NCBI GenBank assembly: GCA_019112635.1 | Contig: DXIX01000012.1 | Span: 62,001 to 126,000 of the forward strand | Direction of reading: 5' to 3' | Source: Candidatus Blautia intestinigallinarum | GTDB taxonomy: Bacteria > Bacillota > Clostridia > Lachnospirales > Lachnospiraceae | DNA length: 64,000 bases | Shown: positions 9,249-24,062 of the stretch, one piece after another | Layout: every line of letters starts with the position of its first letter | Position numbering within the stretch: the first letter of the stretch is position 1 | The notes under the pieces: model-generated | Seen by the model: the letters and a program-made list of their open reading frames with translations, nothing else | Database searches by the model: none | Told to the model about the DNA's origin: nothing | Made by a program: the position numbers and the translations under genes

Positions 9249-9293
9249 GAACATCAGACAAAGCTTGAAAAGAGCATTGTCTGGTGTTCTTTT
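9249..9293 (+). terminator. Rho-independent terminator after the EAL gene
   Basis: A 13-bp stem (9249-9261 with 9277-9289, one G-U pair), 15-nt loop, then TTTT. The remaining stretch to 9414 is AT-rich; a weak TTGAGA/TGTATT pair near 9320-9349 may drive the next gene. Confidence 0.85.
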
Positions 9294-9414
9294 ATGCCGG
9301 GAAAGCTTTCATTTTTATTTTGAGATAAAAGCATGTTTTTTATTGTATTATCAGCGATATATTGATATACTGCATATAGGTGATACGAAAATATATAAGT
9401 TGGAGGATGAAGAT

Positions 9415-10590
9415 ATGGGATGTATTGAGATGACGAAATTTGCTTCTGACAAAAAGCCAAGTATCTATCGTGAGATGTTCAGTGTCGAGGAGGCACAGAA
9501 AGTGAGAGCGTTTCACTGTCAGTTAGAGGAGTACACTCCTACGCCGCTTCGGGAATTGAAGAATCTTTCTGAGGTGTTGGGAATATCTAGACTTTATGTG
9601 AAGGATGAGAGCTATCGTTTTGGATTGAATGCATTTAAAGGACTGGGCGGAAGTTATGCCGTAGCCAAGGTAATTGCAGAGGCAAAGGGGATTTGTCTGG
9701 AGGAAGTCTCCGGGATTGAGGCGGACAGCTTTACTTTTGTGACAGCGACTGACGGGAACCAGGGAAGGGGGATTGCCTGGGCGGCAAAAAAACTTTCACA
9801 GAAAGCAGTGGTGTATCTGCCGAAAGGTTCTTCGAAGGAGCGTCTGGACAATATCCGGTCTTTGGGAGCAAAGGCAGAGATCACAGAGCTGAATTATGAC
9901 GATACGGTGCGGTATGCAAAGGAGCAGGCAGATAGAAACGGATGGTTTTTGGTACAGGATACTGCCTGGCCGGGATATGAAAAAATTCCTTCCTGGATCA
10001 TGCAGGGATATATGACGATGGCGTTGGAAGCAGCAGAGCAATTGCAAGGTGTAAGGCCAACCCATATTTTTCTGCAGGCAGGAGTGGGAGCGATGGCAGG
10101 TGGTGTCAGCGGATTCTTGCAAAGTTTTTATGGCGCGGATATGCCCAAGTTAATTCTTGTGGAACCGAATCAGGCGGACTGCCTTTTTCAGACAGCGAAG
10201 GCAGCAGATGGAAGTCTCCATAAAGTTGAGGGAGATCTGGCTTCCATCATGGCTGGTTTGTGCTGTGGAGAAGTTTGTACGGTTGGCTGGGAGATTTTAA
10301 GGCATTGCGCAGATTACTTTTTCTCTTGTCCGGATTATGTGGCGGCGGATGGCATGCGCATTTTGGGGAACCCTGCGGTTACTGATGAGCGTATCGTCTC
10401 CGGGGAGAGCGGCGCAGTGACCACGGGGCTGCTTTATCATTTGATGAGAGATCCACAGCTTGAAGATTTCCGCAGGGCTGTGGATCTTGGATCGGATTCG
10501 GTAGTTCTGTGTTTCAGTACAGAAGGGGACACAGATCAGGAAAATTACAGACGGATTGTCTGGGACGGATGGTACCGAAAAGAAAAATAA
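9415..10590 (+). CDS. dpaL: Diaminopropionate ammonia-lyase
   Basis: PLP fold-type II enzyme that converts 2,3-diaminopropionate to pyruvate and two ammonia. The frame opens at 9232, but the ATG at 9415 has GGAGG at the right distance and gives 391 residues, matching the YgeX/DpaL family (about 400). The PLP lysine lies in RFGLNAFKGLGGSYA, the phosphate-binding and substrate motifs in TATDGNQGRGIAWAA, and the glycine-rich QAGVGAMAGGVSGFL follows; GLCCGE and SGESGAVT complete the pattern. No ygeW/ygeY-like neighbours are present, so here it is a lone degradative gene. It is convergent with the nuclease gene. Confidence 0.9.
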   Translation: MGCIEMTKFASDKKPSIYREMFSVEEAQKVRAFHCQLEEYTPTPLRELKNLSEVLGISRLYVKDESYRFGLNAFKGLGGSYAVAKVIAEAKGICLEEVSGIEADSFTFVTATDGNQGRGIAWAAKKLSQKAVVYLPKGSSKERLDNIRSLGAKAEITELNYDDTVRYAKEQADRNGWFLVQDTAWPGYEKIPSWIMQGYMTMALEAAEQLQGVRPTHIFLQAGVGAMAGGVSGFLQSFYGADMPKLILVEPNQADCLFQTAKAADGSLHKVEGDLASIMAGLCCGEVCTVGWEILRHCADYFFSCPDYVAADGMRILGNPAVTDERIVSGESGAVTTGLLYHLMRDPQLEDFRRAVDLGSDSVVLCFSTEGDTDQENYRRIVWDGWYRKEK

Positions 10591-10618: not shown

Positions 10619-10661
10619 GCGGGAGATGCTATGCAGCGGTTTTATGGGTGGCATCTCCCGC
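10619..10661 (-). terminator. Hairpin overlapping the 3' end of the nuclease gene
   Basis: Perfect 11-bp inverted repeat GCGGGAGATGC (10619-10629) / GCATCTCCCGC (10651-10661) with a 21-nt loop. The nuclease stop codon (10644-10642) lies in the loop, and the last codons form one arm. On the minus strand the stem is followed by AAAATTTT, so it is likely that gene's terminator. Confidence 0.6.
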
Positions 10662-11583
10662 AGGGCTCATAGCCTTTTTCGATGATCTCCTCCCTGGTGC
10701 CGCTAAATGTCTTTTTATTGTGGGAATCCATTTCAGAGACACTGGAACAGGAAGGAAGATGAAATTTCATGGTATTTGTATTTAAAATGTAGGTGATTTT
10801 TTCACTGTCTTTCTCTTCAGAGGCGGGAACAGCAGATTCGTCTATAGAGCTTTCTCCGGTCTCATAATCGATTTCTACTCCGGGTTGAACGTTGTAGGCA
10901 TAAACGTTAAAACAGACCCCTTCTCCTTGATCTTCCACAGACATGGCTTCCATCAAAACGCCGTCCGCTACCAGATTATCTTCTTCAAAAATCGGTGTGG
11001 CACGGTAGAGTACCTGATTGTCTGTCTCTTCTACATAATCCGCGATTTGATTTTCAAAGGGGAGCATTCCCTCGATATTCATGTAACGGGTGCCGGTGAT
11101 AAGATTTTCTTCATTGGCGTTCTCAGCAGTGAGCTGATAGCCGATGAGATGGCAGCGGTTATAGAGGTATTTTCCGTCGATGAAATCGTATTTCACAGTG
11201 TGCCACCCACTTGGTTTTACTTGACTGATACTGCCCCGTTCCTCTGTGGGCATTGTGTCTGGGTCTACGTTGGCACAGGTAGTTCCGCATCTTCCCAGAT
11301 CATCCAGCTGACTGTAAGACTCAAAGGAAACGGTGCTAAGTTCCGATTCCTGGAAGAATGGAACATTGTCATTTACTTCCACATAGGCTTCTCCAGAATA
11401 TTCCGGGATTTCATCCAGATCGAAGGAGTCCAGGGAGGCTTCATCCGGAATTGCCTGGGCTGCCTCTTCTTCTGATACTTCCGAGTAAACCGTTGGCTTC
11501 GATTCTGATGAAACAGGAACGGAACAGCCAGCGGTAAACATCAATAACAGAGATACAAGGAAAACTAATTTCTGTCTGTTCAT
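10642..11583 (-). CDS. Lipoprotein DNA/RNA non-specific endonuclease with C-terminal Ada-like zinc module
   Basis: 313 residues. A lipoprotein signal ends in FTAGC (Cys20), so the mature protein is anchored on the outer face of the membrane. An acidic linker leads to a beta-beta-alpha nuclease domain (about residues 85-235) whose active-site region reads YNRCHLIGYQL (His145), as in secreted EndA/NucA-like enzymes, followed by ENLITGTRYMN with the metal-binding Asn. Residues ~262-313 form a second module, ILNTNTMKFHLPSCSSV...EPCGRC, resembling the Cys-rich Ada-type metal-binding repeat often appended to exported proteins. Likely role: degradation of environmental DNA, or DNA processing at the surface. 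It has its own promoter, divergent from the fermentation cluster. Confidence 0.85.
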   Translation of the reverse strand: MNRQKLVFLVSLLLMFTAGCSVPVSSESKPTVYSEVSEEEAAQAIPDEASLDSFDLDEIPEYSGEAYVEVNDNVPFFQESELSTVSFESYSQLDDLGRCGTTCANVDPDTMPTEERGSISQVKPSGWHTVKYDFIDGKYLYNRCHLIGYQLTAENANEENLITGTRYMNIEGMLPFENQIADYVEETDNQVLYRATPIFEEDNLVADGVLMEAMSVEDQGEGVCFNVYAYNVQPGVEIDYETGESSIDESAVPASEEKDSEKITYILNTNTMKFHLPSCSSVSEMDSHNKKTFSGTREEIIEKGYEPCGRCHP

Positions 11584-11715: not shown

Positions 11716-11752
11716 ATTACATGTTGCATATTACATGTAATAGTGGTAGGAT
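11716..11752 (+). promoter_or_regulatory. Putative operator-promoter of the branched-chain fermentation operon
   Basis: ATTACATGT occurs twice with a 14-bp period (11716-11724 and 11730-11738); the second copy extends into the perfect palindrome ATTACATGTAAT (11730-11741). A -35-like TTGCAT (11724-11729), 17-bp spacer and TAGGAT (11747-11752) are interleaved with the repeats, so a protein bound here would cover the promoter. The GntR gene at the end of the cluster is the obvious candidate regulator. Confidence 0.5.
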
Positions 11753-11794
11753 AAAGACAACAAAACACCGTGAAAATAAAAAGGAGGAAACGCT

Positions 11795-13126
11795 ATGAAG
11801 AGAAGTCTCTATGAACCATTAATCGCAGAAGGTTTAACATCCTTGAGATTACGCTATGATTACAGAACAGATAAAGAATATATCATTGCGGCTAAGGAGT
11901 GGGATCCGGATATTGACTGGAGTCAATACAATAAAACTTTTTATATGGAAAGTATGCTTACAGAAAATGATGTACGACTTAATAACAAAGAAACGAGAGC
12001 TATGTTCGAGAAATATGGACTGACGGATTATCTAAATGAGGTGTTTGAACTGCTCAGAAGAGGAAAGTTCTTCGGGATGGACTGCTTCTACAGCTCTTAC
12101 AAGGATATGCGGTTTACCGCTAATATTCACAGTTTTGTGCTGGGAAAGAATAATAAAGATCATGCCATTTACACAGGCGGAATCCGCAGGCATGAAAAAG
12201 ACGAACCGGAGATAGAAGTAATTATTGACGGGTTGAATCTGGGACGGGCGGAAAGTCATAAGCATGTAGCAGCAGGTCTTCATTATGGTGGTGGTAAGAT
12301 TACAGTACAGGCAGATCCTGTGGATTTGGAAGATCAAAAAGAATTGGGATTTCTCTCCTACGCATTGGATCGTGTGCGTTTCTTTACTGGACCTGATATG
12401 AGATATCCTGTTGAGCTGGCAGACGCTATGGCTCCATTTACCTGCTATATTACTGCAGGTCTTAAAAATAATCCGATTGGACCATCTGGAGATCCCACTG
12501 CTTGGGGTGTGACTGCAGCAATGAAAGAGGCTGTAAAATTTAAATTTGGCAAGGATAGTCTGGAAGGTTTAAAGATTGCCGTGATGGGACTTGGGGCTGT
12601 GGGATTCCCACAGGCAGGCTATCTGATCGAAAACGGAGCAGATTTGATTGTATGTGATTTGGATCCGAAGGCGATTCAACAATTGAAGGAGAAGTATCCA
12701 GAGGCAAATATCGAAGTGGTGGATGCCAATGAAATTCTCAATGTGGAGGCAGATATTCTGTGCCCATGTGCGATTGGTGGCTTCCTCACAGAAGAGGTGA
12801 TTGATAATCTGAAGGTGAAGATGGTATTTGGAGCAGCGAATAATCAGCTGCATGCAACCAATATTGAAGAAGAGATTATTTTGGCTAAGAGGCTTGCGGC
12901 AAGGGATATTCTTTATCAAGAGTGCTGGATTCAGAATATCGGAGGTGTAATGTCAGGTGCTGTGATGTACCGGGACGGTGCCAACGCAGACCGACAGGCA
13001 TTGATGGATCGCGCTTATCAGGTGTGCGGTGAGAGAACAAAGATCAATCTGCAGGAAGCAAAAGAGCTGGGAATTACCCCGACAGAAAATGCATACCGCT
13101 CTGTAGAGAGTAAGATTTATGTGTGA
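11795..13126 (+). CDS. Glu/Leu/Phe/Val dehydrogenase-family amino-acid dehydrogenase
   Basis: 443 residues, AGGAGG upstream of the ATG. The N-terminal catalytic half contains AGLHYGGGKITV, where the GGGK lysine is the substrate-binding residue of leucine/valine dehydrogenases, and TGPDMRYP at the position of the catalytic Asp. GPSGDPTAWGV corresponds to the conserved substrate-pocket loop, and the NAD-binding half has VMGLGAVGFPQAGYL, then CDLDPKAI, CPCAIGGFL and VFGAANNQL. It should reversibly deaminate a branched-chain or related amino acid to the 2-oxoacid with NAD(P)+. The N-terminal ~100 residues are longer than in Bacillus leucine dehydrogenase (~365 residues), so substrate is not certain. 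First gene of the cluster. Confidence 0.82.
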   Translation: MKRSLYEPLIAEGLTSLRLRYDYRTDKEYIIAAKEWDPDIDWSQYNKTFYMESMLTENDVRLNNKETRAMFEKYGLTDYLNEVFELLRRGKFFGMDCFYSSYKDMRFTANIHSFVLGKNNKDHAIYTGGIRRHEKDEPEIEVIIDGLNLGRAESHKHVAAGLHYGGGKITVQADPVDLEDQKELGFLSYALDRVRFFTGPDMRYPVELADAMAPFTCYITAGLKNNPIGPSGDPTAWGVTAAMKEAVKFKFGKDSLEGLKIAVMGLGAVGFPQAGYLIENGADLIVCDLDPKAIQQLKEKYPEANIEVVDANEILNVEADILCPCAIGGFLTEEVIDNLKVKMVFGAANNQLHATNIEEEIILAKRLAARDILYQECWIQNIGGVMSGAVMYRDGANADRQALMDRAYQVCGERTKINLQEAKELGITPTENAYRSVESKIYV

Positions 13127-13172
13127 GATATTGCGATGAGAATTACCGCGTATCGGTGAAAGGAGGAGCGGG

Positions 13173-14483
13173 ATGGAAAATAAAAGAGAAGGTTTTGGAT
13201 CCAGGTTAGGATTTTTGCTGGTGACAATCGGATTTTCCGTGGGTGTCGGTACTTTGTGGAGATTCCCTTATTTGTGCGGGGAACTTGGAGGAGGACTGTT
13301 CTTAATCACTTATATTATCCTCATGATTGTAATCGGAATTCCGCTGTTTTCGGCAGAAGTTTCCCTGGGGCTCGCTTCCAGGAAGAGTCCGGTACAGGCA
13401 TATCAGAAACTTTCCGGGAAAAAGGCATGGGGAATTGTAGGATGGGTGAATATGGCGGCAATTATTCTGGTAATTGGCTATACACTTCCCGTATATGGGT
13501 GGATCATCCATTATATTTATACTACATTAACCGGGACTTACATAGGAATGGACAGCGCACAGATTGCAGAACATTATGCGGCTATGTCTGTAGATTATCC
13601 CCATGTGTTTCTGATGATTATCATTAATATTATATTGACCATGTTGGTGGTTCGTAAGAATCTTCAGGCAGGAATTGAGAAAATTGCGAAAGTACTTCTT
13701 CCTTCACTGGCGATAATTATGGTGATTGTCACAGTCTATGGGCTGACTTTGGACGGAGCGACCGAAGGATTGGAATTTTTCTTTACCTGGGATTTTTCCA
13801 GTTTTTCCATGGAGACCATTCTGTCAGCGCTGGGACAGGTCTTCTTCTCTCTCGGAATTGCCATGGCGGTAGCTTTAGTGTTTGGAAGTTACCAAAAAGA
13901 GGGAGAATTGAATGTGGTGAAAAATTCTGCGATTATCAGCTGTGCAGTAATTTTCGTGGCAGTTCTGGCAGGTATGATGATCTTTCCGATGGTGTATTCC
14001 TTTGGCCTGAGTGTGACAGAGGGGCCCGGATTGGTTTTTGTGGTAATGCCAAATGTATTTAATCAGATGGCCGGCGGGGTGATCTGGGGTACTTTATTTT
14101 ATATTGCATTTTTCATTGCGGCGTTCTCATCCGGAATTGCGGGATGGGAGGCAGTTATGGGATTTTTGATGGATCAATTCAATCTGACAAGACAAAAAGC
14201 ATTGTGGGGAACTTTGGTTTTGGTATGTATTGTTGGAATTCCGGCAACGGTATCGACCTCAGCATTTAATCTGTTTGATATGATTACAAACAATGTATTT
14301 TTGACGATAGGTGCATTCTGTATGTCTATTTTTGTTGGATGGATTTGGGGAATTCCAAACTTCCTAAAGACGATTGGAATGGATGAAGAATCAACAGGGG
14401 CGAAGTGTCTAGGATTTGTGATCAAATATCTCTCTCCTGTTGTGATTATTGTCTTTTCCTTGACACTGTTTGGTGTAATCTGA
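13173..14483 (+). CDS. NSS (SNF) family sodium:amino-acid symporter
   Basis: 436 residues with about 11-12 hydrophobic segments. The start GFGSRLGFLLVTIGFSVGVGTLWRFPYLCGELGGG is the hallmark of neurotransmitter:sodium symporters, carrying the unwound TM1 substrate and Na+ site; similar bacterial members (LeuT, MhsT, TnaT) import hydrophobic or branched-chain amino acids. A strong AGGAGG-like site precedes the ATG. It lies 46 bp downstream of the amino-acid dehydrogenase and upstream of the kinase/transferase genes, which points to import of the amino acid fermented by the cluster. Direct substrate evidence is absent from sequence alone. Confidence 0.9.
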   Translation: MENKREGFGSRLGFLLVTIGFSVGVGTLWRFPYLCGELGGGLFLITYIILMIVIGIPLFSAEVSLGLASRKSPVQAYQKLSGKKAWGIVGWVNMAAIILVIGYTLPVYGWIIHYIYTTLTGTYIGMDSAQIAEHYAAMSVDYPHVFLMIIINIILTMLVVRKNLQAGIEKIAKVLLPSLAIIMVIVTVYGLTLDGATEGLEFFFTWDFSSFSMETILSALGQVFFSLGIAMAVALVFGSYQKEGELNVVKNSAIISCAVIFVAVLAGMMIFPMVYSFGLSVTEGPGLVFVVMPNVFNQMAGGVIWGTLFYIAFFIAAFSSGIAGWEAVMGFLMDQFNLTRQKALWGTLVLVCIVGIPATVSTSAFNLFDMITNNVFLTIGAFCMSIFVGWIWGIPNFLKTIGMDEESTGAKCLGFVIKYLSPVVIIVFSLTLFGVI

Positions 14484-14493
14484 AGAACCAAAA

Positions 14494-14527
14494 AGTCCCA
14501 TCTGATTTTTATGAGTCAGATGGGACT
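14494..14527 (+). other. Perfect 12-bp inverted repeat without U-tract between transporter and kinase genes
   Basis: AGTCCCATCTGA (14494-14505) and TCAGATGGGACT (14516-14527) with a 10-nt loop. No T-run follows on the plus strand, so it is a poor intrinsic terminator for the operon. It may instead be an RNA-stability/processing element or partial attenuator that sets different levels for the upstream and downstream genes; on the minus strand TTTT does follow. Confidence 0.6.
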
Positions 14528-14597
14528 CATGCTTTATGGGGAACTGGCAGATTCTGAAAAAGAGAAGAAAAAGAATACCTAGGAAAAGGAGAGTTTC

Positions 14598-15719
14598 ATG
14601 AGTGAAGAGATAATTTTGGTGATTAATCCTGGTTCTACTTCCACGAAAACAGCAATTTTCCGTGGAAATCATCAGGAGGATATGAGAGAGATTTTGCACA
14701 GCGGAGAAGAATTGAAAAAATTTCACTCTATAACAGAACAGTTGGATTTCCGAAAAAGGGTAGTTATGGAGTACCTAAAAGACCAGAAACTATCACCGGA
14801 AGATTTAGATGCCATTGCCTGTCGAGGCGGTGTGGTCGGACAATTGGAATCTGGTGCGTATCTGATAGACGAGACCTTTGCGAATGCTTCTTATCATGCG
14901 GTAATTCCTCATCCGGCTAATCTGGCACCCGTTATCGGCTATGGTATCGCGGTGCAGGCAAATGAGAAAAAAGGTAAAAAGATGGAGGATCCCGATGCAG
15001 TGAAGGCATATGTCTATGATCCTGTATGCGGATGTGGAGTTCCAGAGGAGATTTATACGCTTACTGGTATTCCAGAGGTGAAAAAACCATTTCTCACTCA
15101 TGTCTTAAATAGCCGTGCAGTGAGTATTGAACAGGCACGAAGAGATGGGAAGTCATTTAAGGACGTCATCTATATAGTAGCCCATTTGGGAGGAGGTATC
15201 ACAGTCAATTTGGTGAAGGATGGAAGAATTCTAGATTTTGTGGGAGACGATGAAGGTGGTTTCTCACCGGAGAGATCTGGAGGACTTCCTGTGAGGCCTC
15301 TTGTCAGTCTATGTTATTCAGGAAAATATACAGAGAGAGAAATGCAAAAAAGATTAAAGGGAAAAGGAGGTCTTGTGGCTTACTTGGGATTTAATGATCT
15401 GCGGGATGTACAGAAGAGAATTGAAGAAGGGGATTCTCATGCAAAATTGGTTTTCGACGCAATGGTACTTCAAACAGCAAAGGATATTGCTTCTCTGACA
15501 GCTGTGACCTGCGGGAAGGTGGACAAAATCATTTTCACGGGCGGAATGGCATACTCTCAGAGTTTTACACAGGAGTTGAGACGGCGCGTGGAGTTTCTGG
15601 CACCAGTGAGTGTAATCGCAGGAACTTATGAGATGGAAGCTCTGGCAGGAGGGATCCTCAGGGTTCTTCATGGGGAAGAAAAACCGCATCTCTTGATGAG
15701 GGAGAAGGTGAGCTTTTGA
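14598..15719 (+). CDS. buk: Butyrate kinase family protein (branched-chain-fatty-acid kinase)
   Basis: 373 residues of the ASKHA acetate/butyrate kinase family: the N-terminal phosphate loop VINPGSTSTKTAIF, RGGVVGQLESGAY, HPANLAPVIGYGIA, AHLGGGITVNLV, RSGGLPVRPL and the C-terminal adenosine motif FTGGMAYS. It transfers phosphate from an acyl-phosphate to ADP, giving ATP and the free acid. In this context isobutyryl-, isovaleryl- or 2-methylbutyryl-phosphate is the likely substrate. The stop overlaps the following TTG start (TTGA), so it is translationally coupled to the phosphotransferase. Strong AGGAAAAGGAG upstream. Confidence 0.92.
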   Translation: MSEEIILVINPGSTSTKTAIFRGNHQEDMREILHSGEELKKFHSITEQLDFRKRVVMEYLKDQKLSPEDLDAIACRGGVVGQLESGAYLIDETFANASYHAVIPHPANLAPVIGYGIAVQANEKKGKKMEDPDAVKAYVYDPVCGCGVPEEIYTLTGIPEVKKPFLTHVLNSRAVSIEQARRDGKSFKDVIYIVAHLGGGITVNLVKDGRILDFVGDDEGGFSPERSGGLPVRPLVSLCYSGKYTEREMQKRLKGKGGLVAYLGFNDLRDVQKRIEEGDSHAKLVFDAMVLQTAKDIASLTAVTCGKVDKIIFTGGMAYSQSFTQELRRRVEFLAPVSVIAGTYEMEALAGGILRVLHGEEKPHLLMREKVSF

Positions 15720-16624
15720 GTTATAAAAATTTCGAAGAATTGACAAAAGTAGTTAAGACTAGTGGAAAGAAATGTGTTGTTGTAGCGGCGGCGCAGGATG
15801 CCCATGCTCTGAAAGCTATATTCCGTGCCAGTGATGAAGGAATTTTGGATTATATTTTGGTAGGGAAGACGGAAGAGATTTTGTTTTTGGCTAAGGAATT
15901 GGGATATTCGGTTGCAAAAGAGAGAATCGTCAAGGCGGAGGACACAAAGCAGGCAGCCTGCCAGGCGGTAGAATTGATCCGGCAGGGAACAGGGGACTTT
16001 CTGATGAAGGGAAAGCTAGAGACAGAGACTTTGCTTCGCCAGGTAGTCAATAAGGAGAACGGAATCGGATTGGGCGGGCTGATGTGTCATATGGCTTTAA
16101 TAGAAGTGCCTTCGTATCCTAAACTTTTGGGATTGACTGACAGTGGAATGGTGATCAATCCCGATTATGGGCAGAAAAAGGAAATCCTGAAAAAAGGGAT
16201 AGGATTTTTTCATAAGATTGGAGTTTCCTGTCCGAAGGTTTCCTGTCTGGCAGCTGTGGAAAAAGTGAACGCCAAGATGCCGGAGACAGAGGATGGAGCG
16301 GCGTTAAAAGAAGAAGCACTAAAAGGTGAGTTTGGTGAGTGCTACGTGGAAGGCCCTATTTCCTGTGATCTTACTTTCAGCAGGGAGGCAGCGAAGGCGA
16401 AGAACTACAAAAGCCCGGTAACCGGAGACGTGGATCTCCTGCTTGTCCCCAATATGGTAACTGGAAACATTATAGGGAAAATTCTGACTTGTCTCGCCGG
16501 AGCAAAAATGGCGGGCTGTGTACTGGGAGCAAAGGTTCCTATTGTACTCACATCGAGAGGTTCCAGTTTTGAGGAAAAATATAATTCTTTGATACTATGT
16601 GCGGCATGGACAGGGAGAAATTAA
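15716..16624 (+). CDS. ptb: Phosphate butyryltransferase-type acyl-CoA phosphotransferase
   Basis: 302 residues from a TTG that overlaps the kinase stop by 4 bp, with GGAGAAGG upstream. Family features: FLMKGKLETETLLRQVVNKENGI, GLTDSGMVINPDYGQK, the GPISCDLTFSREAAKAK segment, DVDLLLVPNMVTGNIIGK and VLTSRGSSFEEK at the end. It converts an acyl-CoA plus phosphate to acyl-phosphate and CoA, providing the substrate for the kinase; the pair makes ATP by substrate-level phosphorylation. Here the acyl-CoA should come from the 2-oxoacid:ferredoxin oxidoreductase encoded downstream, so branched acyl-CoA is the expected substrate. Confidence 0.92.
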   Translation: MSYKNFEELTKVVKTSGKKCVVVAAAQDAHALKAIFRASDEGILDYILVGKTEEILFLAKELGYSVAKERIVKAEDTKQAACQAVELIRQGTGDFLMKGKLETETLLRQVVNKENGIGLGGLMCHMALIEVPSYPKLLGLTDSGMVINPDYGQKKEILKKGIGFFHKIGVSCPKVSCLAAVEKVNAKMPETEDGAALKEEALKGEFGECYVEGPISCDLTFSREAAKAKNYKSPVTGDVDLLLVPNMVTGNIIGKILTCLAGAKMAGCVLGAKVPIVLTSRGSSFEEKYNSLILCAAWTGRN

Positions 16625-16635
16625 GGGGAGAGAGT

Positions 16636-17298
16636 ATGAAGAAGAAAAATTTTGTGCTTTTGGGCGAGTCAGGAAGTGGTAAAAGTGAGATTGCAGTGAA
16701 TCTGGCCTGTGTGCTGTCAAAACAAAGTCCGGATGGAAAAGAAGTACATTTTTTTGATTTGGATCAAACTAAGCCTTTGTTCCGTTCTAGGGATGTGAAA
16801 GAGTTATTGGAGAGAGAAGGGGTGATAGTACATTTTGAACAACAGTTCCTGGATACTCCCACAATTGTCGGCGGTGTGGAACCATGTCTAAAGGAAGAAA
16901 AATGCTATACAATTTTGGATGTGGGAGGAAATCATACAGGGGCACGAATGATTGGAAGATTCTCCAGACTTTTGAATCAGGAGGATACAGAAGTTTGTTT
17001 TGTGATTAATCCTTACCGTCCCTGGTCGAAAGATGTTAAGTCTATTGATCAGACGCTCTCGTCCATTCTTCAGGTTTCAAGTATCAGGAAAGTAACCATA
17101 ATCAGCAATCCCAATCTGGGGAGTACAACAAAGGTGCAGGAGATTCTAGAGGGACATCAAAATGTTTTGAATATGATTCAGGAATTCTTACCAGTGAGAT
17201 ATTTGTGTGTCAGGGAAGATTTGTGTGAGGAGATCCGGAAGAAGACAGATACCTTGGTCCTCCCCCTAAAACTGCGAATGCAGTATGAAGGTATATGA
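16636..17298 (+). CDS. P-loop ATPase of unknown role inside the fermentation operon
   Basis: 220 residues from the ATG at 16636 (AAGGGGAG upstream). The N-terminus has a clear Walker A, GESGSGKSEIAVNLA (about residues 9-23), followed by FFDLDQTKPLFRSRD, and a Walker-B-like YTILDVGGNHTGA near residue 98. The pattern is that of SIMIBI/ParA-MinD or CobQ-type NTPases that act as switches or metallocentre chaperones, but the deviant-Walker Lys is not obvious. I do not recognise a named family. It sits between the phosphotransferase and the ferredoxin subunit with gaps of 11 and 37 bp, so it is clearly part of the operon. Possible roles are oxidoreductase maturation or regulation; this is inference only. 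Confidence 0.75.
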   Translation: MKKKNFVLLGESGSGKSEIAVNLACVLSKQSPDGKEVHFFDLDQTKPLFRSRDVKELLEREGVIVHFEQQFLDTPTIVGGVEPCLKEEKCYTILDVGGNHTGARMIGRFSRLLNQEDTEVCFVINPYRPWSKDVKSIDQTLSSILQVSSIRKVTIISNPNLGSTTKVQEILEGHQNVLNMIQEFLPVRYLCVREDLCEEIRKKTDTLVLPLKLRMQYEGI

Positions 17299-17335
17299 CA
17301 TAAAAATGAGTAAGTGGCAATAGGAGGTTTTTGAT

Positions 17336-17539
17336 ATGGCGAAAGTGGAGATCAGAGCAGAGAGCTGTAAAAGCTGTGGCTATTGTGTGAAATTTTGTCC
17401 CAAACGGGTGTTGGAAGTGGGAGAACATGTGAATGCAAAGGGGTATCCATATGTGGTGGTGAAGAACCAGGAAGCCTGTGTTGCCTGTCTGTCCTGCGCA
17501 CTGATGTGCCCGGAAGCAGCGATTGAGATTTATAAATAA
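17336..17539 (+). CDS. vorD: 2-oxoacid:ferredoxin oxidoreductase delta subunit (2[4Fe-4S] ferredoxin)
   Basis: 67 residues with two full cluster motifs, CKSCGYCVKFCP and CVACLSCALMCP, each C-x2-C-x2-C-x3-CP, separated by a strand rich in Val. This is the delta-type ferredoxin subunit that hands electrons from the catalytic TPP/cluster core to free ferredoxin. TAGGAGG-like site upstream; the next subunit begins 16 bp after the stop. The order delta-alpha-beta-gamma is common in VOR/KOR operons. Confidence 0.93.
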   Translation: MAKVEIRAESCKSCGYCVKFCPKRVLEVGEHVNAKGYPYVVVKNQEACVACLSCALMCPEAAIEIYK

Positions 17540-17555
17540 TAACGGAGGTGAGGAC

Positions 17556-18620
17556 ATGAAGAGAGTATTTATGAAAGGCTGTGAGGCCATCGCTGAGGCA
17601 GCAATACGGTCTGGATGCCGCTTTTTTGCTGGATATCCGATTACTCCTCAAAATGAAATTCCAGAGTATTTGGCGAGAAGGATGCCGGAAGTGGGCGGGA
17701 ACTTTGTACAGGGTGAAAGTGAGGTGGCTTCCGTCAATATGGTATATGGAGCAGCGCAAACTGGGACAAGGGCGATGACTTCTTCCTCCAGCTGCGGAAT
17801 TAGTTTGAAAAGTGAAGGAATTTCATTTATGGCATCTGCCAGAATTCCGATGGTTTATGTTAATGTGTCGAGAGGCGGTCCGGGAATCGGCTCTATTCAA
17901 CCCTCTCAGCAGGACTATTTTCAGGCAACCAAGGCTAGTGGAAATGGGGGATTCCGCATGATGGTTTTTGCCCCAGCTACGGTGCAGGAGGCGGTGGACA
18001 TGACTTATGCAGCTTTTGATTATGCCCAGAGAGACCGCAATCCGGTCTTGATTCTCACAGACGGTGTTGTGGGAACCATGATGGAGCCTGTAGTGCTGCC
18101 TCCGATGAGAAGTGAAGAAGAGGTACGAAAATTGAAAGAGGCACACCATAAGTGGGCGTTTGTGGGCCACAGAGAAGATGAAGAGCGTGCGCTGATTCTT
18201 CCGGGCGGCTGGTCTGGGCAGGAGGAGCGTTGTATTCGCAATGCCGAACTTTACGAGAGTTGGGAGAAGGACATTCAGGTGGAAGAGTATTTGATAGAGG
18301 ATGCACAAGTAGTGATTACAGCGTTTGGAATTTCTGGACGGGTATCAAAATCTGCTGTAAATCTTATGAGAAAAGAAGGTTATAAGGTTGGCCTGATCCG
18401 GCCTAAGACGGTGTCGCCGTTTCCTTATGATTCTTTTGAAAGATTGGATTATTCTAGGGTGAAAGCGATTCTGGATGTGGAGATGTCAATCCCTGCACAA
18501 TTGGTTTATGATGTGAAGCTAGGCGTGAAAGATCGGGCTTTGATTGCTACCTGCTTGCGGTCCGGAGGGGAACTGATTACTAGGGAAGCTGTGATCCAGG
18601 CAGCAAAAGCACTTTTTTGA
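17556..18620 (+). CDS. vorB: 2-oxoacid (3-methyl-2-oxobutanoate):ferredoxin oxidoreductase alpha subunit, VorB type
   Basis: 354 residues from the ATG at 17556 (ACGGAGGTGAGG upstream; the frame is open a few codons further). The start MKGCEAIAEAAIRSGCRFFAGYPITPQNEIPE is characteristic of VorB. TSSSSCGISLKSEGISFMA, VNVSRGGPGIGSIQPSQQDYFQATK and the C-terminal half (QVVITAFGISGRVSK, LIRPKTVSPFPYD, VEMS) fit domains I and II of the OFOR family. With the TPP-binding beta subunit it oxidatively decarboxylates branched 2-oxoacids to acyl-CoA, reducing ferredoxin. A 2-oxoglutarate (KOR) specificity cannot be excluded from sequence, but the neighbouring genes favour branched substrates. Confidence 0.88.
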   Translation: MKRVFMKGCEAIAEAAIRSGCRFFAGYPITPQNEIPEYLARRMPEVGGNFVQGESEVASVNMVYGAAQTGTRAMTSSSSCGISLKSEGISFMASARIPMVYVNVSRGGPGIGSIQPSQQDYFQATKASGNGGFRMMVFAPATVQEAVDMTYAAFDYAQRDRNPVLILTDGVVGTMMEPVVLPPMRSEEEVRKLKEAHHKWAFVGHREDEERALILPGGWSGQEERCIRNAELYESWEKDIQVEEYLIEDAQVVITAFGISGRVSKSAVNLMRKEGYKVGLIRPKTVSPFPYDSFERLDYSRVKAILDVEMSIPAQLVYDVKLGVKDRALIATCLRSGGELITREAVIQAAKALF

Positions 18621-18634
18621 CAGGAGGAATTGAG

Positions 18635-19372
18635 ATGGAAAAAGTATATAAGAGAACTTTTGGAATTCGGGATGACATGGTGTCTGGATTCTGTCCTGGA
18701 TGTATGCACGGTACAATTTTCAAACTGATTGGTGAGGTTATTGAAGAACTGGGAATTAGAGAACGGGTAGCGAATGTACAGGGGGTGGGATGTTGCGGTC
18801 TGGCCATGGAATACGTGACGTATGACGTAACCACTTCCCCCCATGGAAGGGCTTGCGCAGTGGCAACAGGGGTGAAACGCGCCAATCCGGAGACGATTGT
18901 ATTTACTTATCAGGGAGATGGAGATTTGGCGTCCATTGGTCTTGCGGAGTCTATGTCGGCGGCAAACCGAGGGGAAAATATCACAGTTATTTTTGTTAAT
19001 AATGGTATCTATGGGATGACAGGTGGACAGTTGGCTCCGACCACTTTACTGGGAATGAAGGCGACTACGGCTCCAAGAGGGAGAGATGCTAAGGAACATG
19101 GGTATCCCATGCATATGTGCGAGATTTTGAATACATTAACTGCACCTGTCTATTTGGAACGTACCAGCTGTAATAATCCCAAAAATGTACGCAGAACAAA
19201 GGCAGCTATTAAAAAAGCTTTTCAAAATCAGATAGACGGTAAGGGATTTTCCTTGGTAGAGGTTGTGACTTCTTGTCCTACCAACTGGGGGATGGATCCT
19301 TTGGGAGCATTGGATTTCCTGGAGGGAAAAATGCTCAAGGAATATCCTCTGGGTGTAATACGAGACAAATAG
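18635..19372 (+). CDS. vorA: 2-oxoacid:ferredoxin oxidoreductase beta subunit (TPP-binding)
   Basis: 245 residues from the ATG at 18635, which has AGGAGG 8 nt upstream; the in-frame TTG at 18617 lacks a site. The TPP/Mg2+ motif is GDGDLASIGLAESMSAANRG followed by NNGIYGMTGGQ, and the N-terminal FCPGCMHG supplies conserved cysteines of the beta subunit. LGMKATTAPRGRDAKEHGYPM and VEVVTSCPTNWGM are further family blocks. It forms the catalytic centre with the alpha subunit. 13 bp separate it from the gamma subunit. Confidence 0.9.
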   Translation: MEKVYKRTFGIRDDMVSGFCPGCMHGTIFKLIGEVIEELGIRERVANVQGVGCCGLAMEYVTYDVTTSPHGRACAVATGVKRANPETIVFTYQGDGDLASIGLAESMSAANRGENITVIFVNNGIYGMTGGQLAPTTLLGMKATTAPRGRDAKEHGYPMHMCEILNTLTAPVYLERTSCNNPKNVRRTKAAIKKAFQNQIDGKGFSLVEVVTSCPTNWGMDPLGALDFLEGKMLKEYPLGVIRDK

Positions 19373-19385
19373 GAGGGAGATTAAT

Positions 19386-19940
19386 ATGGAAAGAAATCTA
19401 TTGGTGGCAGGCTTTGGAGGACAGGGAGTTATGCTTCTGGGGAAGCTTTTGTCTAATTGTGCCTGTGAAAATACGGATAAGAATGTAACTTTTTTTCCTT
19501 CCTATGGGGCTGAGCAAAGAGGAGGGACAGCCAATTGCTATGTGGTGATCTCAGATGATATGATCGGCGCACCTGTGTCAGATAGCATGGAAGACCTGAT
19601 TGTGATGAATGAGCCATCACTGAGACGTTTTCTGGGTAAATTAAAGCCAGGCGGCAATTTGTTTGTGAACAGTTCCATTGTCCATGGATCTATTGAGAGG
19701 GAAGATATCCATGTGGTGGAAGTTCCAGTGACAGAGATGGCTTTGGAGATGGGAAATGCCAAAGTTTTAAATTTGATTATGCTAGGAGTTTATGTGGGAT
19801 ACACGCAGATTCTGCCTCCGGAATTACTTCTTGAGACGATTGAGAAGAAACTAGGGAAAAAGGCACAGTTGATTCCCTTAAATAAAGAAGCTTTTCGCAA
19901 AGGACTGGAGATTGGAGAGAAAACACGAAAACAGGAGTGA
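19386..19940 (+). CDS. vorC: 2-oxoacid:ferredoxin oxidoreductase gamma subunit
   Basis: 184 residues, AGGAGGGAG upstream. Family blocks: LLVAGFGGQGVMLLGKLL, VTFFPSYGAEQRGGTANCYVVIS and FVNSSIV. This is the CoA-contacting gamma domain of OFORs, which is fused to alpha in other members but separate here. It is the last structural gene of the cluster and is followed by the regulator. Confidence 0.93.
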   Translation: MERNLLVAGFGGQGVMLLGKLLSNCACENTDKNVTFFPSYGAEQRGGTANCYVVISDDMIGAPVSDSMEDLIVMNEPSLRRFLGKLKPGGNLFVNSSIVHGSIEREDIHVVEVPVTEMALEMGNAKVLNLIMLGVYVGYTQILPPELLLETIEKKLGKKAQLIPLNKEAFRKGLEIGEKTRKQE

Positions 19941-19994
19941 GAAACAGGAAAAAGAATTTCGGATTTTACAGTGGTTTCTGATAACAAAATGCGT

Positions 19995-20053
19995 TATAAT
20001 AGATAAAGATGCGGCACGAGGGGGATATGCTGTTCTACCTGTGCCGTATTTTT
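19995..20053 (+). promoter_or_regulatory. TATAAT followed at once by a terminator-like leader hairpin before the GntR gene
   Basis: A perfect TATAAT (19995-20000) lacks a good -35. The expected transcript start near 20007 lies at the foot of a 10-bp hairpin (20009-20018 with 20040-20049, two G-U pairs) that runs into TTTTT (20049-20053). The hairpin can terminate the VOR operon; it could also attenuate a transcript starting at this promoter. Confidence 0.55.
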
Positions 20054-20098
20054 GATGATGGTAAAAACATAAGAATGGGAACGGTAAGAGGGGTAATG

Positions 20099-20758
20099 AT
20101 GAGAAAAAAAGTAGTCCGACAGTCTTTGTCTGAGCAGGCATATGCATTGATCATTGATAAAATCCGAAAAGGAGAGCTGAAGCCGGGAGACCGTATTAAT
20201 ATTGAGGAGTTTGCCAAAGAAATTGGTGTGAGTAGAACACCCATGCGTGAAGCTGTGAACCGATTGATTCAAAATGGATTTTTGGAGAGTAAACTGAATG
20301 TGGGGCCCAGTGTGGCGGAATATAATCGCAAAGAGACTATGGATTTGATTGAGACTAATACGATCTTGAATGAGGAGGGCTTGAAACTGGTTTTCCAAAA
20401 TCCGATTTCACCCAAATTGAAAAAGAAAATCAGAGAGATTGTGGAGAAACAAAAGCAATTTATGGAGGAGGGAAAAGAACAAGATTTTTACCTATATTCC
20501 ATGGAATTCCATTATAGATTGATTGAGGAATGTTCCAATGAGAAATTAAAGAAACTTGCTATGGACGTTCAGATGCAGCTTGGCATTTGGGTTTATCAAT
20601 ATCAGGAGGATGAGAAGATCCGCCAGATAAGTCTGAACGAGCATCAGCAGCTGAATATCCTGCTTCAGGAAGAAAAAAAGAAAGAATTTCTGGAACTCTT
20701 GCGCAGACATAATGAGAAGCCGCTGGAATTCTTCAAAAATATAAATGAGGATCTCTGA
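20099..20758 (+). CDS. GntR-family transcriptional regulator
   Basis: 219 residues from the second of two adjacent ATGs (20096/20099) after AGAGGGG; the open frame extends further upstream but through the leader hairpin. The N-terminal winged helix is clear: LSEQAYALIIDKIRKGELKPGDRI, INIEEFAKEIGVSRTPMREAVNRLIQNGFL, followed by a C-terminal all-helical FCD/FadR-like effector domain (about residues 75-215, with HYRLIEECSN). FadR-type GntR proteins bind short palindromes and sense small carboxylates. Placed directly after the 2-oxoacid oxidoreductase genes, it is the probable local regulator and may act at the ATTACATGTAAT site at 11730. Confidence 0.85.
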   Translation: MRKKVVRQSLSEQAYALIIDKIRKGELKPGDRINIEEFAKEIGVSRTPMREAVNRLIQNGFLESKLNVGPSVAEYNRKETMDLIETNTILNEEGLKLVFQNPISPKLKKKIREIVEKQKQFMEEGKEQDFYLYSMEFHYRLIEECSNEKLKKLAMDVQMQLGIWVYQYQEDEKIRQISLNEHQQLNILLQEEKKKEFLELLRRHNEKPLEFFKNINEDL

Positions 20759-20803: not shown

Positions 20804-22528
20804 CTAATTATGGCTGTGATGTAGCTCACCAGATATGGATGATTTTGCAGGATCTTTTTTAATCAGTTCTTTTCCGGAGGTTACCACAATCGTTACGCCT
20901 AGGATCATCAGAAGGATGGCAACAATCAGTTGGAGGCCTTCTACCATAAAGACACCGGTACCAGAGGTAAAAGCGTGAATGAGGGAGAAGAACCGTTGAA
21001 TCAATGCGGTGAATGTCACGACCAGCATGATGACAAAGGGAGGAACCAATGTGCGCATTTCTCTTCCGGTTACTTTGAGGAAGACACAGAGCGTGATCAG
21101 TACCAGCGCGCTCAGCAGCTGGTTGGCGCTTCCGAACAAAGGCCAGATATTAGAGTAACCGATCTGGGTTAAGAGGTAACCGAAAAACAGAGTGATTAAA
21201 GTCGCGAAATATTTATTACACAGCAGTTTTCTCCAACCTTCGGCATGTTCCATGTCATCCACACTGAAGAGTTCCTGGAAGGACATACGTCCGATTCGGG
21301 CTACGGAATCCAGAGTAGTGAAGGCGAGGGCTGATACACACATCGTCATAAAGCTCTGTGCCACGTAGACTGGAATTCCAAAAATTTCAAGAAAACCGGC
21401 GACACCGGAAGAAAAGATCTGGAATGGAGTTCCCACTGCAGCCGTACCGTCAGAGGCGGCAGCGGCGCCTGCAACGCAAAGGGCGATGACAGCGAGAAAG
21501 CTTTCCAGAACCATGGCTCCATATCCGACTTTGAGCATATCTTTTTCATTAGAGACGGTCTTAGAGGAAGTTCCGGATGAGACAAGGCTGTGAAATCCGG
21601 ATACAGCTCCGCAGGCGACAGTCACGAACAGGATAGGAAACAAAGTGCCCAGGCTTTCATTTTGAAATCCGGTATATGCAGGAAGATTCATAGTCGGGTG
21701 GGCGAAAATCAGCCCGAGAACAGCACCGGCGATCATTCCCACGAACATGAATGTGGACATGTAATCTCTCGGCTGCATGACAAACCACATGGGGAGCACA
21801 GCAGCGAGGAAGATATAGATGAAAGCAATGTAGATCCATGCCTCTTTTCCAAGAATCAGCGGAAGATTCATGCCGCATACAAAAGAAAGAAGTGTGAAGG
21901 CAAGTCCGAGAACGACTTCTTTCCAGCCGCTGAATTTCATTTTATGTTGAATCAGTCCGAAGACTGCTGCGAAAAGGATGAAAAATAATGAGATACTTCC
22001 CGCTGCGCCGTTTACTTTGGCACTTTCAGAAAGTGTCCGTGCTCCGTCTGCCACAACATAAGCGTTGAAGGTATCTGCCACCATATCTGCAAATGCGGCG
22101 AGTACGATGAGGGTGAACAGCCAGCAAAATCCGAGAAAAAGTTTTCGCCCGGCTTTGCCGATGTATTTTTCAATCAAAAGGCCCATGGATTTGCCGTCAT
22201 TTTTCACACTGGCATAGAGGGCGCCGAAATCGGTGACTGCACCGAAGAAAATGCCGCCGAGAATAATCCACAGCAAGACAGGCAGCCAGCCAAAGGCTGC
22301 GGCTTGGATGGCTCCGGTGACAGGGCCTGCCCCCGCAATGGAGGAAAACTGATGGGCGAATACAGTCCATCCGTCTGTGGGAACATAATCTTGTCCGTCA
22401 TTGTGGAGGACTGCGGGAGTCTTTGCTTTTGGGTCAATTCCCCATTTTTTTGCCAGCCAGCGGCCGTACAGTGCGTAGGCGGCCACCAGACATACGGCAG
22501 CGATCAGTACGATGATTAATGTGTTCAT
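20804..22528 (-). CDS. cstA: CstA-family carbon starvation protein / small-metabolite carrier
   Basis: 574 residues with about 15 hydrophobic segments. The N-terminal block HNDGQDYVPTDGWTVFAHQFSSIAGAGPVTG is the CstA signature; SGFHSLVSSGTSSKTVSNE and FTTLDSVARIGRMSFQELF are further conserved blocks. E. coli relatives (BtsT, CstA) carry pyruvate or peptides. Its length fits the shorter Firmicutes/BtsT form. It is transcribed alone from a promoter at 22950-22977 through a T-box leader, so expression responds to an uncharged tRNA, which suggests a cargo linked to an amino acid. AGGAAGGAG precedes the ATG at 22528. Confidence 0.92.
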   Translation of the reverse strand: MNTLIIVLIAAVCLVAAYALYGRWLAKKWGIDPKAKTPAVLHNDGQDYVPTDGWTVFAHQFSSIAGAGPVTGAIQAAAFGWLPVLLWIILGGIFFGAVTDFGALYASVKNDGKSMGLLIEKYIGKAGRKLFLGFCWLFTLIVLAAFADMVADTFNAYVVADGARTLSESAKVNGAAGSISLFFILFAAVFGLIQHKMKFSGWKEVVLGLAFTLLSFVCGMNLPLILGKEAWIYIAFIYIFLAAVLPMWFVMQPRDYMSTFMFVGMIAGAVLGLIFAHPTMNLPAYTGFQNESLGTLFPILFVTVACGAVSGFHSLVSSGTSSKTVSNEKDMLKVGYGAMVLESFLAVIALCVAGAAAASDGTAAVGTPFQIFSSGVAGFLEIFGIPVYVAQSFMTMCVSALAFTTLDSVARIGRMSFQELFSVDDMEHAEGWRKLLCNKYFATLITLFFGYLLTQIGYSNIWPLFGSANQLLSALVLITLCVFLKVTGREMRTLVPPFVIMLVVTFTALIQRFFSLIHAFTSGTGVFMVEGLQLIVAILLMILGVTIVVTSGKELIKKDPAKSSISGELHHSHN

Positions 22529-23117: not shown

Positions 23118-23137
23118 AATCACAGAATAAAAAGAAA

Positions 23138-23272
23138 TTCTTCGGGGCAGGGTGATTCGTGAAGAACAGATATCCGAACGGAAATTCCCTACCGGCGGTA
23201 CAGTCCGCGAGCCTTCGGGCCGATTTGGTGAAATTCCAAAACCGACAGTATAGTCTGGATGAGAGAAGAAAG
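23138..23272 (+). promoter_or_regulatory. FMN (RFN) riboswitch
   Basis: The conserved blocks appear in order: TCTTCGGGGCAGGGTGA, TACCGGCGGTA, AGTCCGCGAGCC, TTTGGTGAAATTCC, ACCGACAGT, AGTCTGGATGAGAGAAG. It controls a riboflavin importer, the usual arrangement. The usual short L2 loop (TGAAATT) is interrupted by about 26 extra nt (23156-23181) that can form a small hairpin with TTCG/CGAA ends, which is unusual. Confidence 0.95.
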
Positions 23273-23296
23273 TTTGAGAACATAGATGGATGTTTC

Positions 23297-23332
23297 AGAT
23301 GCCCGGAGATCGTTTTGGAGGCATCTTTTTTT
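23297..23332 (+). terminator. Intrinsic terminator of the FMN riboswitch expression platform
   Basis: AGATGCC (23297-23303) pairs with GGCATCT (23320-23326), followed by a run of T to 23332. Riboflavin-rich cells would stop transcription here, before ribU. Confidence 0.85.
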
Positions 23333-23426
23333 GTTCTGTTTCAGATATCCATCGGAAAGCAACTCTATTCTTGATACAAGAATTTCCTTTTATTTATTAT
23401 CATTTTTTATAAAAGGAGAGAGTGAC

Positions 23427-24062
23427 ATGAGTGAGCAAGTAATTCGAAACACCCAAGTGATGAACCGCAGCAAGACGAGAAATCTGGTCCAGGTAGCGAT
23501 GCTGGGAGCAGTGGCAGGAGTTCTGATGAATTTTGAGTTCCCTCTGCCGTTTCTGGCGCCTCCGTTTTACCAGATGGATTTCTCAGAGATCCCTGTTCTT
23601 GTAGGCGCTTTCGCCATGGGGCCTGTGGCTGGCGTGGTGATTGAACTGATTAAAATTCTTCTGCATTTTGTGCTCCATGGCAGCACTACGGCTGGTGTGG
23701 GCGAACTGGCGAATTTCATCTTTGGATGTGCGTTTGTGATTCCGGCAGGCCTGATTTACCGTTATCACCACAAAAAAACCAGAGTACACGCTTTGGTTGG
23801 CATGGCAGTTGGAACAGTCCTGACGACGGTTTTGGCATGTTTGATTAATACCTTTGTACTGCTTCCAGTCTATGGCAAGGCTTTCGGCATGCCGGTGAGC
23901 GCTTTTGTGGAGATGGCACAGTCTGTACATGCGTCTGTGGATAATCTTCTGGCGTTTGCAGTGATGATACTGGTACCCTTTAATTTGTTTAAATATGTGA
24001 TTGTCTCGCTGATTGTATTTTTTATCTACAAGAGAGTTCGAGTAATTTTAAGAGGAGACTGA
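23427..24062 (+). CDS. ribU: ECF transporter S component, riboflavin (RibU type)
   Basis: 211 residues from the ATG at 23427 (AAAAGGAGAG upstream). Six hydrophobic segments; the N-terminal helix has VQVAMLGAVAGVLMNFEFPLPFLAPPFYQMDFSEIPVLVGAF, the typical RibU pattern with the A-x-x-x-A-like Ala face for the EcfT coupling protein. The FMN riboswitch directly upstream makes riboflavin the cargo. No EcfA/EcfT genes are in the window, so it likely uses a shared module. The Nudix gene starts 7 bp after its stop. Confidence 0.93.
   Translation: MSEQVIRNTQVMNRSKTRNLVQVAMLGAVAGVLMNFEFPLPFLAPPFYQMDFSEIPVLVGAFAMGPVAGVVIELIKILLHFVLHGSTTAGVGELANFIFGCAFVIPAGLIYRYHHKKTRVHALVGMAVGTVLTTVLACLINTFVLLPVYGKAFGMPVSAFVEMAQSVHASVDNLLAFAVMILVPFNLFKYVIVSLIVFFIYKRVRVILRGD

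Follow-up and report, generated by a model that had tools for sequence, protein, structure and literature searches.

Blautia hydrogenotrophica, an acetogen of the Lachnospiraceae, carries a described relative of the locus studied here. Its gene cluster RUMHYD_00546-00556, ordered ilvE, branched-chain amino acid (BCAA) transport, brnQ, gamma, thiamine pyrophosphate (TPP) and alpha subunits, 4Fe-4S protein, hypothetical protein, buk, ptb and GntR, was proposed in 2018 to ferment BCAA via a presumed acyl kinase and acyltransferase (PMC6378601). We compared with it ten genes at positions 11795-20758, plus strand, of a 64,000-nucleotide stretch of Candidatus Blautia intestinigallinarum, hereafter the window (G000:C31:62001-126000; the draft genome, G000, comprises 2.12 Mb in 37 contigs and is 75.5% complete). 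The window operon is a variant of the published module, with a dehydrogenase and an MhsT-like symporter in the places of ilvE and BrnQ, and it includes a gene for a P-loop protein that adjoins the oxidoreductase (vor) genes in many other genomes. The central idea of an initial annotation of the window, BCAA fermentation to branched acids with ATP gain, is not new, having been put forward for B. hydrogenotrophica in the 2018 proposal.

In co-culture, 10 of the 11 RUMHYD_00546-00556 genes have table values of 6.48-9.46, for which the passage concerned states no unit, with 1.4 for gntR, and the cluster rises while branched acids form (PMC6378601). In data from 2026, expressed RUMHYD_00549-00553 was active on branched 2-oxoacids, two VOR-like 2-oxoacid:ferredoxin oxidoreductases (OFORs) of B. 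hydrogenotrophica were aromatic, six of ten OFORs were active, and CO2 from amino acids entered acetate (PMC13290082). The VORs of Clostridium sporogenes (CLOSPO_00146-00149, active on branched 2-oxoacids and compared here by description only) and Intestinibacter bartlettii are described there as active four-gene sets (PMC13290082). The C. scatologenes system HpdDEFG-HpdJ-HpdK, a four-subunit VOR-type enzyme with Ptb and Buk homologues, converts hydroxyphenylpyruvate to hydroxyphenylacetate in vitro and yields ATP and reduced ferredoxin; similar oxidoreductase-Ptb-Buk trios are widespread in anaerobic Firmicutes (PMC13285125). It differs from the window operon in that HpdDEFG, although it falls in the VOR cluster, prefers hydroxyphenylpyruvate, and in sitting with a hydroxyphenylacetate decarboxylase; the main text of that paper mentions neither MinD, P-loop nor ATPase (PMC13285125).

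A dehydrogenase-type variant of the module

Open reading frame (ORF) calls, together with Pfam and NCBIfam matches, bear out every gene named by the initial annotation, each intact and on the plus strand. The first is AADH443, an ELFV-superfamily amino acid dehydrogenase of 443 residues (11795-13126; PF00208, 40.3 bits, cut-off 23.4), followed by an NSS Na+ symporter (13173-14483; PF00209, 186.8 bits); buk, a butyrate-kinase-family acyl kinase (14598-15719); ptb, a Ptb-family phosphate acyltransferase (15716-16624; PF01515, 135.6 bits); the P-loop gene (16636-17298, alternative start 16597); vorD, a 2x[4Fe-4S] ferredoxin subunit with Fer4 domains (17336-17539); vorB, the alpha-type subunit (about 17556-18620, alternative TTG start 17523; NF005507 VorB, 430.2 bits, cut-off 399; in a five-row tree set with support 99/98); vorA, the TPP-binding beta-type subunit (about 18632-19372, alternative start 18617; PF02775, 80.2 bits); vorC, the gamma subunit (19386-19940; PF01558, 133.3 bits); and, at the 3' end, a GntR-family regulator (20084-20758, alternative start 20009). 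With starts as chosen here, the intergenic gaps in gene order are 46, 114, -4, 11, 37, 16, 11, 13 and 143 nt; buk through vorC are closely packed (-4 to 37 nt), and gntR is preceded by a 143-nt leader carrying a TATAAT box. The extent given earlier, 11716-20758, is right at its end, where gntR stops, but 11716 falls in the 5' flank and not at a gene start; the earlier gene list was correct but incomplete, as it overlooked the 220-residue P-loop ORF between ptb and vorD.

The cluster unites genes for a four-subunit OFOR with ptb and buk homologues, and a dehydrogenase homologue stands in place of a transaminase at the step from amino acid to 2-oxoacid. Judged from these homologies, it is probably a catabolic operon that oxidizes a hydrophobic L-amino acid to an acid with ATP gain. 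The symporter would import the amino acid with Na+, AADH443 would deaminate it to the 2-oxoacid, VorDBAC would decarboxylate this to acyl-CoA with reduction of ferredoxin, and the Ptb and Buk homologues would convert acyl-CoA via acyl phosphate to the free acid, with one ATP formed. Homology thus sustains the earlier view of an oxidative amino acid operon with substrate-level ATP gain, whose kinase and transferase presumably act on acyl groups other than butyrate; the branched-chain specificity that went with it, branched acyl groups included, is plausible, though the sequence gives mixed signals on it. Buk passes the butyrate kinase cut-off (TIGR02707, 349.6 versus 289.1 bits); butyrate formation was rejected as the chief interpretation because the operon's source of acyl-CoA is a 2-oxoacid oxidoreductase.

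The electrons would probably be consumed by reductive acetogenesis encoded elsewhere in the genome. Two CdhC/AcsB-type genes (714- and 709-residue frames) lie 2.3 kb apart at G000:C22:68840-71593 (L233 and L234), and the genome contains ten POR_N genes; it therefore looks like that of an amino-acid-oxidizing acetogen resembling B. hydrogenotrophica, with reductive acetogenesis as the likely electron sink. The earlier reading placed no reductive partner in the operon; at genome level these two CdhC/AcsB-type genes suggest a likely one. A separate acetate kinase gene (501 bits) with a Pta-like neighbor also lies on C22.

A second member of the window's genus, G833, carries at locus L244 gntR, on the other strand beside ptb, followed by ptb, buk, P-loop gene, vorD, vorB, vorA, vorC, brnQ split in two frames, and ilvE. 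NCBIfam scores are 450.7 bits for ilvE (cut-off 307), 448.5 for buk (289.1) and 411.4 for ptb (410.5), and both brnQ pieces match the BCAA carrier family. This is the RUMHYD order, the two adjacent transport ORFs included, and gene order, split brnQ and genus together suggest that G833 is, or stands close to, B. hydrogenotrophica. The "hypothetical protein" RUMHYD_00553, which occupies the same slot, is by this correspondence probably the P-loop protein. The L244 P-loop protein is 28% identical to the window's and resembles clade B of the family, the window's own clade being A; at another G833 locus, L243, the P-loop gene shares 41% identity with that of the window and is accompanied by a BrnQ gene. 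The published cluster and the window operon therefore share vorCABD, the gene in the slot of 00553, buk, ptb and gntR, and differ in that ilvE and BrnQ are found in the former and the dehydrogenase and NSS symporter in the latter.

A P-loop gene beside one lineage of vor genes

The P-loop protein scores above the gathering cut-off of PF01656, of the CbiA clan (28.3 versus 25.4 bits), and has no other Pfam or NCBIfam match at E 1e-3. Its AlphaFold2 model (pLDDT 89.8, pTM 0.88) is a P-loop domain; among solved structures its fold is closest to SRP-type GTPases, followed by HypB and by AF_226, the last of which we take to be Mrp-like (TM-scores about 0.4-0.6). In an alignment of 49 members, G13, G15, K16, D41, D43, D95, G97, G98 and N125 are invariant (49/49). 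Proteins of the ParA/MinD/Mrp group have a deviant Walker A motif, marked by a lysine that precedes the P-loop lysine by five residues, and the Mrp/ApbC/NUBPL carriers have conserved cluster-binding cysteines. Neither feature is present among the 49: the lysine column holds E in 27, H in 13, G in 5, A in 3 and a gap in 1, and the best cysteine column reaches 24/49. Pfam finds CbiA in 38 of the 49 (E 1e-3) and NUBPL in 13; NCBIfam gives only weak matches, ParA (15), MrpORP (10) and ApbC (6) among them, and none for the window member. The protein thus has a broad fold class in common with Mrp/ApbC/NUBPL Fe-S carriers and HypB-type ATPases, with weak profile similarity for some members, but differs from them in lacking the deviant lysine and any conserved cysteine. 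It looks like a member of an unnamed SIMIBI-type family and may hydrolyze a nucleotide, presumably ATP.

Named genomes were scanned with a profile of 20 P-loop members, mostly from VOR loci; no VOR sequence entered the search. At least 597 stretches matched and 578 were confirmed, and the best 80, those nearest the window protein, were examined. By tblastn, vor genes lie directly beside the P-loop gene in 76 of these best 80 loci, directly downstream on the same strand in 75 (25-318 nt) and directly upstream in L143; of the other four, L149 ends at a contig edge, and L163 (941 nt left), L183 and L184 have no vor gene. The best 80 loci span at least four phyla, including, besides Firmicutes, Atribacteria, a Thermosipho metagenome-assembled genome and a Synergistales genome. 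In Firmicutes, Atribacterota and Thermotogota the P-loop gene immediately precedes vorD, whereas in one Synergistota genome it follows vorC. No buk or ptb lies on that strand within about 7 kb in 49 of the 76 vor-linked loci (26 of the 49 with the full 7 kb on both sides), which ties the P-loop gene to VOR rather than to the kinase.

Within the Lachnospiraceae, 37 of 397 genomes match the P-loop protein, at 39 places, and in the window's genus 8 of 64 do. A vor gene adjoins in 25 of the 30 examined among the 38 places outside the window, and L101 and L085 are also adjacent by coordinates; L102 runs off its contig, and L082 and L084 have no vor gene beside the P-loop gene. Approached from the oxidoreductase, the P-loop gene is adjacent in 33 of the 65 VorB-like matches listed (compared by eye) and in 18 of the 21 full-length VorB matches of at least 60% identity, the exceptions being G203, where the P-loop gene sits at a different contig's end, and the second VorB copies of G348 and G270. 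The gene is also missing from the VorB clade formed by L031, L032, L033 and L100. The initial annotation had suggested checking conservation of the gene set, and the same module does recur in other genomes, its set far beyond chance.

It is also conceivable, though we consider it unlikely, that the P-loop gene is a passenger or regulator rather than a partner of VOR. VORs of C. sporogenes and I. bartlettii are reported to be active as four-gene sets (PMC13290082), from which it follows that not every VOR needs a P-loop partner. Three of the four VorDBAC-type loci of the window genome and 32 of the 65 VorB-like matches listed are without the gene, and across 30 loci its distance matrix tracks Ptb (0.860) as well as VorB (0.861; Buk, 0.302), so we rejected distance correlation as specific evidence for VOR. 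Against a passenger or regulator speak, however, the vor adjacency in 76 of the best 80 loci, 49 of these 76 without buk or ptb as above, and the invariance of G13, G15, K16, D41, D43, D95 and N125.

Its position before vorD, its invariant nucleotide site and its remote relationship to ATPases of enzyme maturation favor a role in assembly or activation, and we tentatively propose, a little short of an even chance, that the protein is an ATPase that assembles or activates the enzyme in one VOR lineage. It would be a fifth, VOR-dedicated component; the fuller statement, that one VorDBAC lineage is a five-gene system in which a dedicated SIMIBI ATPase assembles or activates the enzyme with ATP, is offered slightly more tentatively still. 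We know of no dedicated ATPase helper for this oxidoreductase family, and the protein is not named in titles or abstract openings of the open-licence PMC literature searched, a weak negative.

Some matches were set aside. A phylum-wide tally of 343/398 genomes was not used, many matches being near E 1e-4 and probably generic ParA-like, and IORA matches 249-424 nt after the P-loop gene (23-31% identity) were treated as VorB cross-matches; IOR neighbors at 50% identity or more occur at L113, L136 and L161. At L099 (5689-12854) vorDBAC is tandemly duplicated with the P-loop gene between the copies, and an FdhD/NarQ-family gene precedes the first. Clade-B P-loop-VOR operons at L079, L080, L165, L170, L174, L176, L186 and L246 carry a BCAA transaminase gene, a gene for an AMP-forming acyl-CoA ligase whose closest relative is MbcS, or both, the ligase of L080 being fused to a helix-turn-helix-cupin; they look like operons for isoacid-to-BCAA synthesis by reductive carboxylation, the reverse of fermentation.

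Substrate and direction

BCAA are the likeliest substrates to judge by related loci, a call we hold at about even strength. The same-genus module L244 holds ilvE and BrnQ, a BCAA transaminase gene occurs in 5 of 35 clade-B loci (one scanned member, ilvE_II, scores 465.2 bits against a cut-off of 307), and a LeuDH-like gene occurs in the distant P-loop loci L160, L161 (Thermoanaerobacter wiegelii) and L178. The NSS symporter is nearest among solved chains to 4us3, a "sodium-dependent transporter" that we take to be MhsT (224 bits; LeuT entries, 99-111 bits), which suggests an MhsT-like protein for hydrophobic amino acid uptake.

A number of observations weigh against a branched-chain catabolic operon. 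In clade A, none of the 45 named loci, many of which are ended by contig edges, shows ilvE, LeuDH or BrnQ on the same strand over a distance of 8 kb, although at L135 the opposite strand carries a LeuDH-like gene. Ptb, whose nearest solved structure is the Ptb 7vg9, scores below the cut-offs for phosphate butyryltransferase (TIGR02706, 280.7 versus 410.5 bits) and branched-chain phosphotransacylase (TIGR02709, 135.8 versus 475.15 bits). Buk has a long end branch (1.19; median, 0.37) in a 16-row tree set made up largely of VOR-linked kinases, which has support 94/86 and is not starred. The kinase most similar to it, at 46% identity, is that of L034 in its own genome, which faces an IOR-type gene. 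Between the symporter gene and buk, a 15-bp perfect stem (14494-14527, plus strand; fold z = -2.99) scored as terminator-like in a pattern scan, with a tail poor in T; it may be an attenuator, terminator or processing site, and two transcription units are therefore possible. The enzymes are reversible, which makes the catabolic direction an inference. Lastly, AADH443 has a PheDH-type motif and a pocket unlike that of LeuDH.

The nearest solved structures to AADH443 are LeuDH (1e-36), tryptophan dehydrogenase (1e-31) and PheDH (1e-21); a glutamate dehydrogenase (GDH) reading was rejected (GDH 39.7 versus LeuDH 129.9 bits). The catalytic residues of LeuDH are K68, K80 and D115, and its side-chain pocket is formed by L40, A113 and V294. 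In the alignment AADH443 retains the catalytic Lys, Lys and Asp, whereas T, G and G occupy the pocket positions, so the LeuDH pocket is not kept. All seven full-length AADH443 rows have a TGPDM motif, whose G lies two positions ahead of the catalytic D; Rhodococcus PheDH has TGPDV and LeuDH has AEDV. The pocket list of Bacillus halodurans PheDH includes 122G-123T-124D-125M (PMC9728165). These comparisons suggest that AADH443 deaminates a hydrophobic amino acid with NAD(P), and because the L230 homologue carries K where LeuDH has L40, substrates within the group may differ.

AADH443 is rare: at E 1e-40 it occurs in 7 of the family's 397 genomes, a count that takes in the window genome and a partial match in G365. 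Close copies among the 41 closest genomes are confined to G000 and G008. It adjoins NSS in two G008 loci. In G173, locus L230 has a vorDBAC set followed by AADH443, while ptb, buk and an NSS homologue of 27% identity lie divergently close by; its VorB is nearest, by BLAST, to the ligase-linked type. No vor, buk or ptb was seen near AADH443 in short stretches from G382, G401, G088 and G176.

The PheDH-like motif is an argument that the operon instead takes aromatic (Phe, Tyr) or mixed hydrophobic amino acids to arylacetates, as the C. scatologenes Hpd system does, an alternative we regard as possible but less probable than BCAA. That a VOR-cluster enzyme can prefer hydroxyphenylpyruvate (PMC13285125), and that two VOR-like B. 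hydrogenotrophica OFORs are aromatic (PMC13290082), fits it as well. Overall, however, AADH443 is closer to LeuDH than to solved PheDH, the same-genus module carries ilvE and BrnQ, and the window genome already holds three IOR-type genes (two over the IOR_alpha cut-off, the third 49.7% identical to one of those), of which two, at L030 (696.8 bits, cut-off 650.9) and L034 (on the strand opposite ptb and buk), lie beside ptb and buk. C. difficile kinases of the Buk kind have either branched or aryl preference (PMC13285125). Kinase phylogeny was rejected as a reader of specificity, as IOR-linked and VOR-linked kinases are not cleanly separated. The L030 genes form a ptb-iorA-iorB-buk operon (G000:C31:27640-32137; L030 7640-12137), a likely arylpyruvate counterpart of the window operon. 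The other vorDBAC-like loci of this genome (L031, L032 and L033) have an acyl-CoA ligase gene in place of buk and ptb, the best NCBIfam models of the ligases all being below cut-off.

Reverse operation, in which Buk and Ptb would activate branched short acids for reductive carboxylation by VOR and amination to BCAA, is very improbable in our view. Buk, Ptb, VOR and the dehydrogenase are reversible in principle, and some distant P-loop-VOR operons, those with a MbcS-nearest ligase and/or ilvE, fit acid uptake and BCAA synthesis. The window genome has ilvC and ilvD, however, so that the operon is not needed for BCAA synthesis; the uptake symporter and type of dehydrogenase fit catabolism, and the sister cluster rises during branched acid formation (PMC6378601). 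We retain oxidation of a hydrophobic amino acid, with BCAA as the foremost candidates.

Flanking genes and wider meaning

Upstream on the plus strand, a diaminopropionate ammonia-lyase gene (9262-10590; TIGR03528, over cut-off) is probably a separate unit, because an opposite-strand ORF (10642-11583) intervenes. The palindrome TTACATGTAA in the 5' flank (11731-11740) has 2 matches in the window with at most one mismatch against 1.26 expected, which is not significant, and it was rejected as an operator since its frequency is not above chance. A gene convergent with gntR (20804-22528) is nearest CstA (NF011590, 250.5 bits, far below the cut-off of 1188), and a hairpin lies between the 3' ends of the two genes. 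Further on, an FMN riboswitch (23134-23274; 102 bits versus 66.2) directly precedes a membrane-protein gene (23286-24062; the part 23418-24059 matches no NCBIfam model at E 1e-20), which presumably encodes something like a riboflavin ECF transporter subunit.

Branched and aryl acids formed from amino acids are important in the gut, and gene-based prediction of their producers depends on reading such operons correctly. Since a dehydrogenase and an NSS symporter stand in for the transaminase and BrnQ, searches that rely on ilvE or brnQ as markers would overlook the variant described here. Of greatest value among these results is the P-loop protein, which is conserved but has no name and offers a testable candidate for a component lacking so far in a central anaerobic enzyme; if it does assist one VOR lineage, its omission could explain some inactive heterologous VOR preparations.

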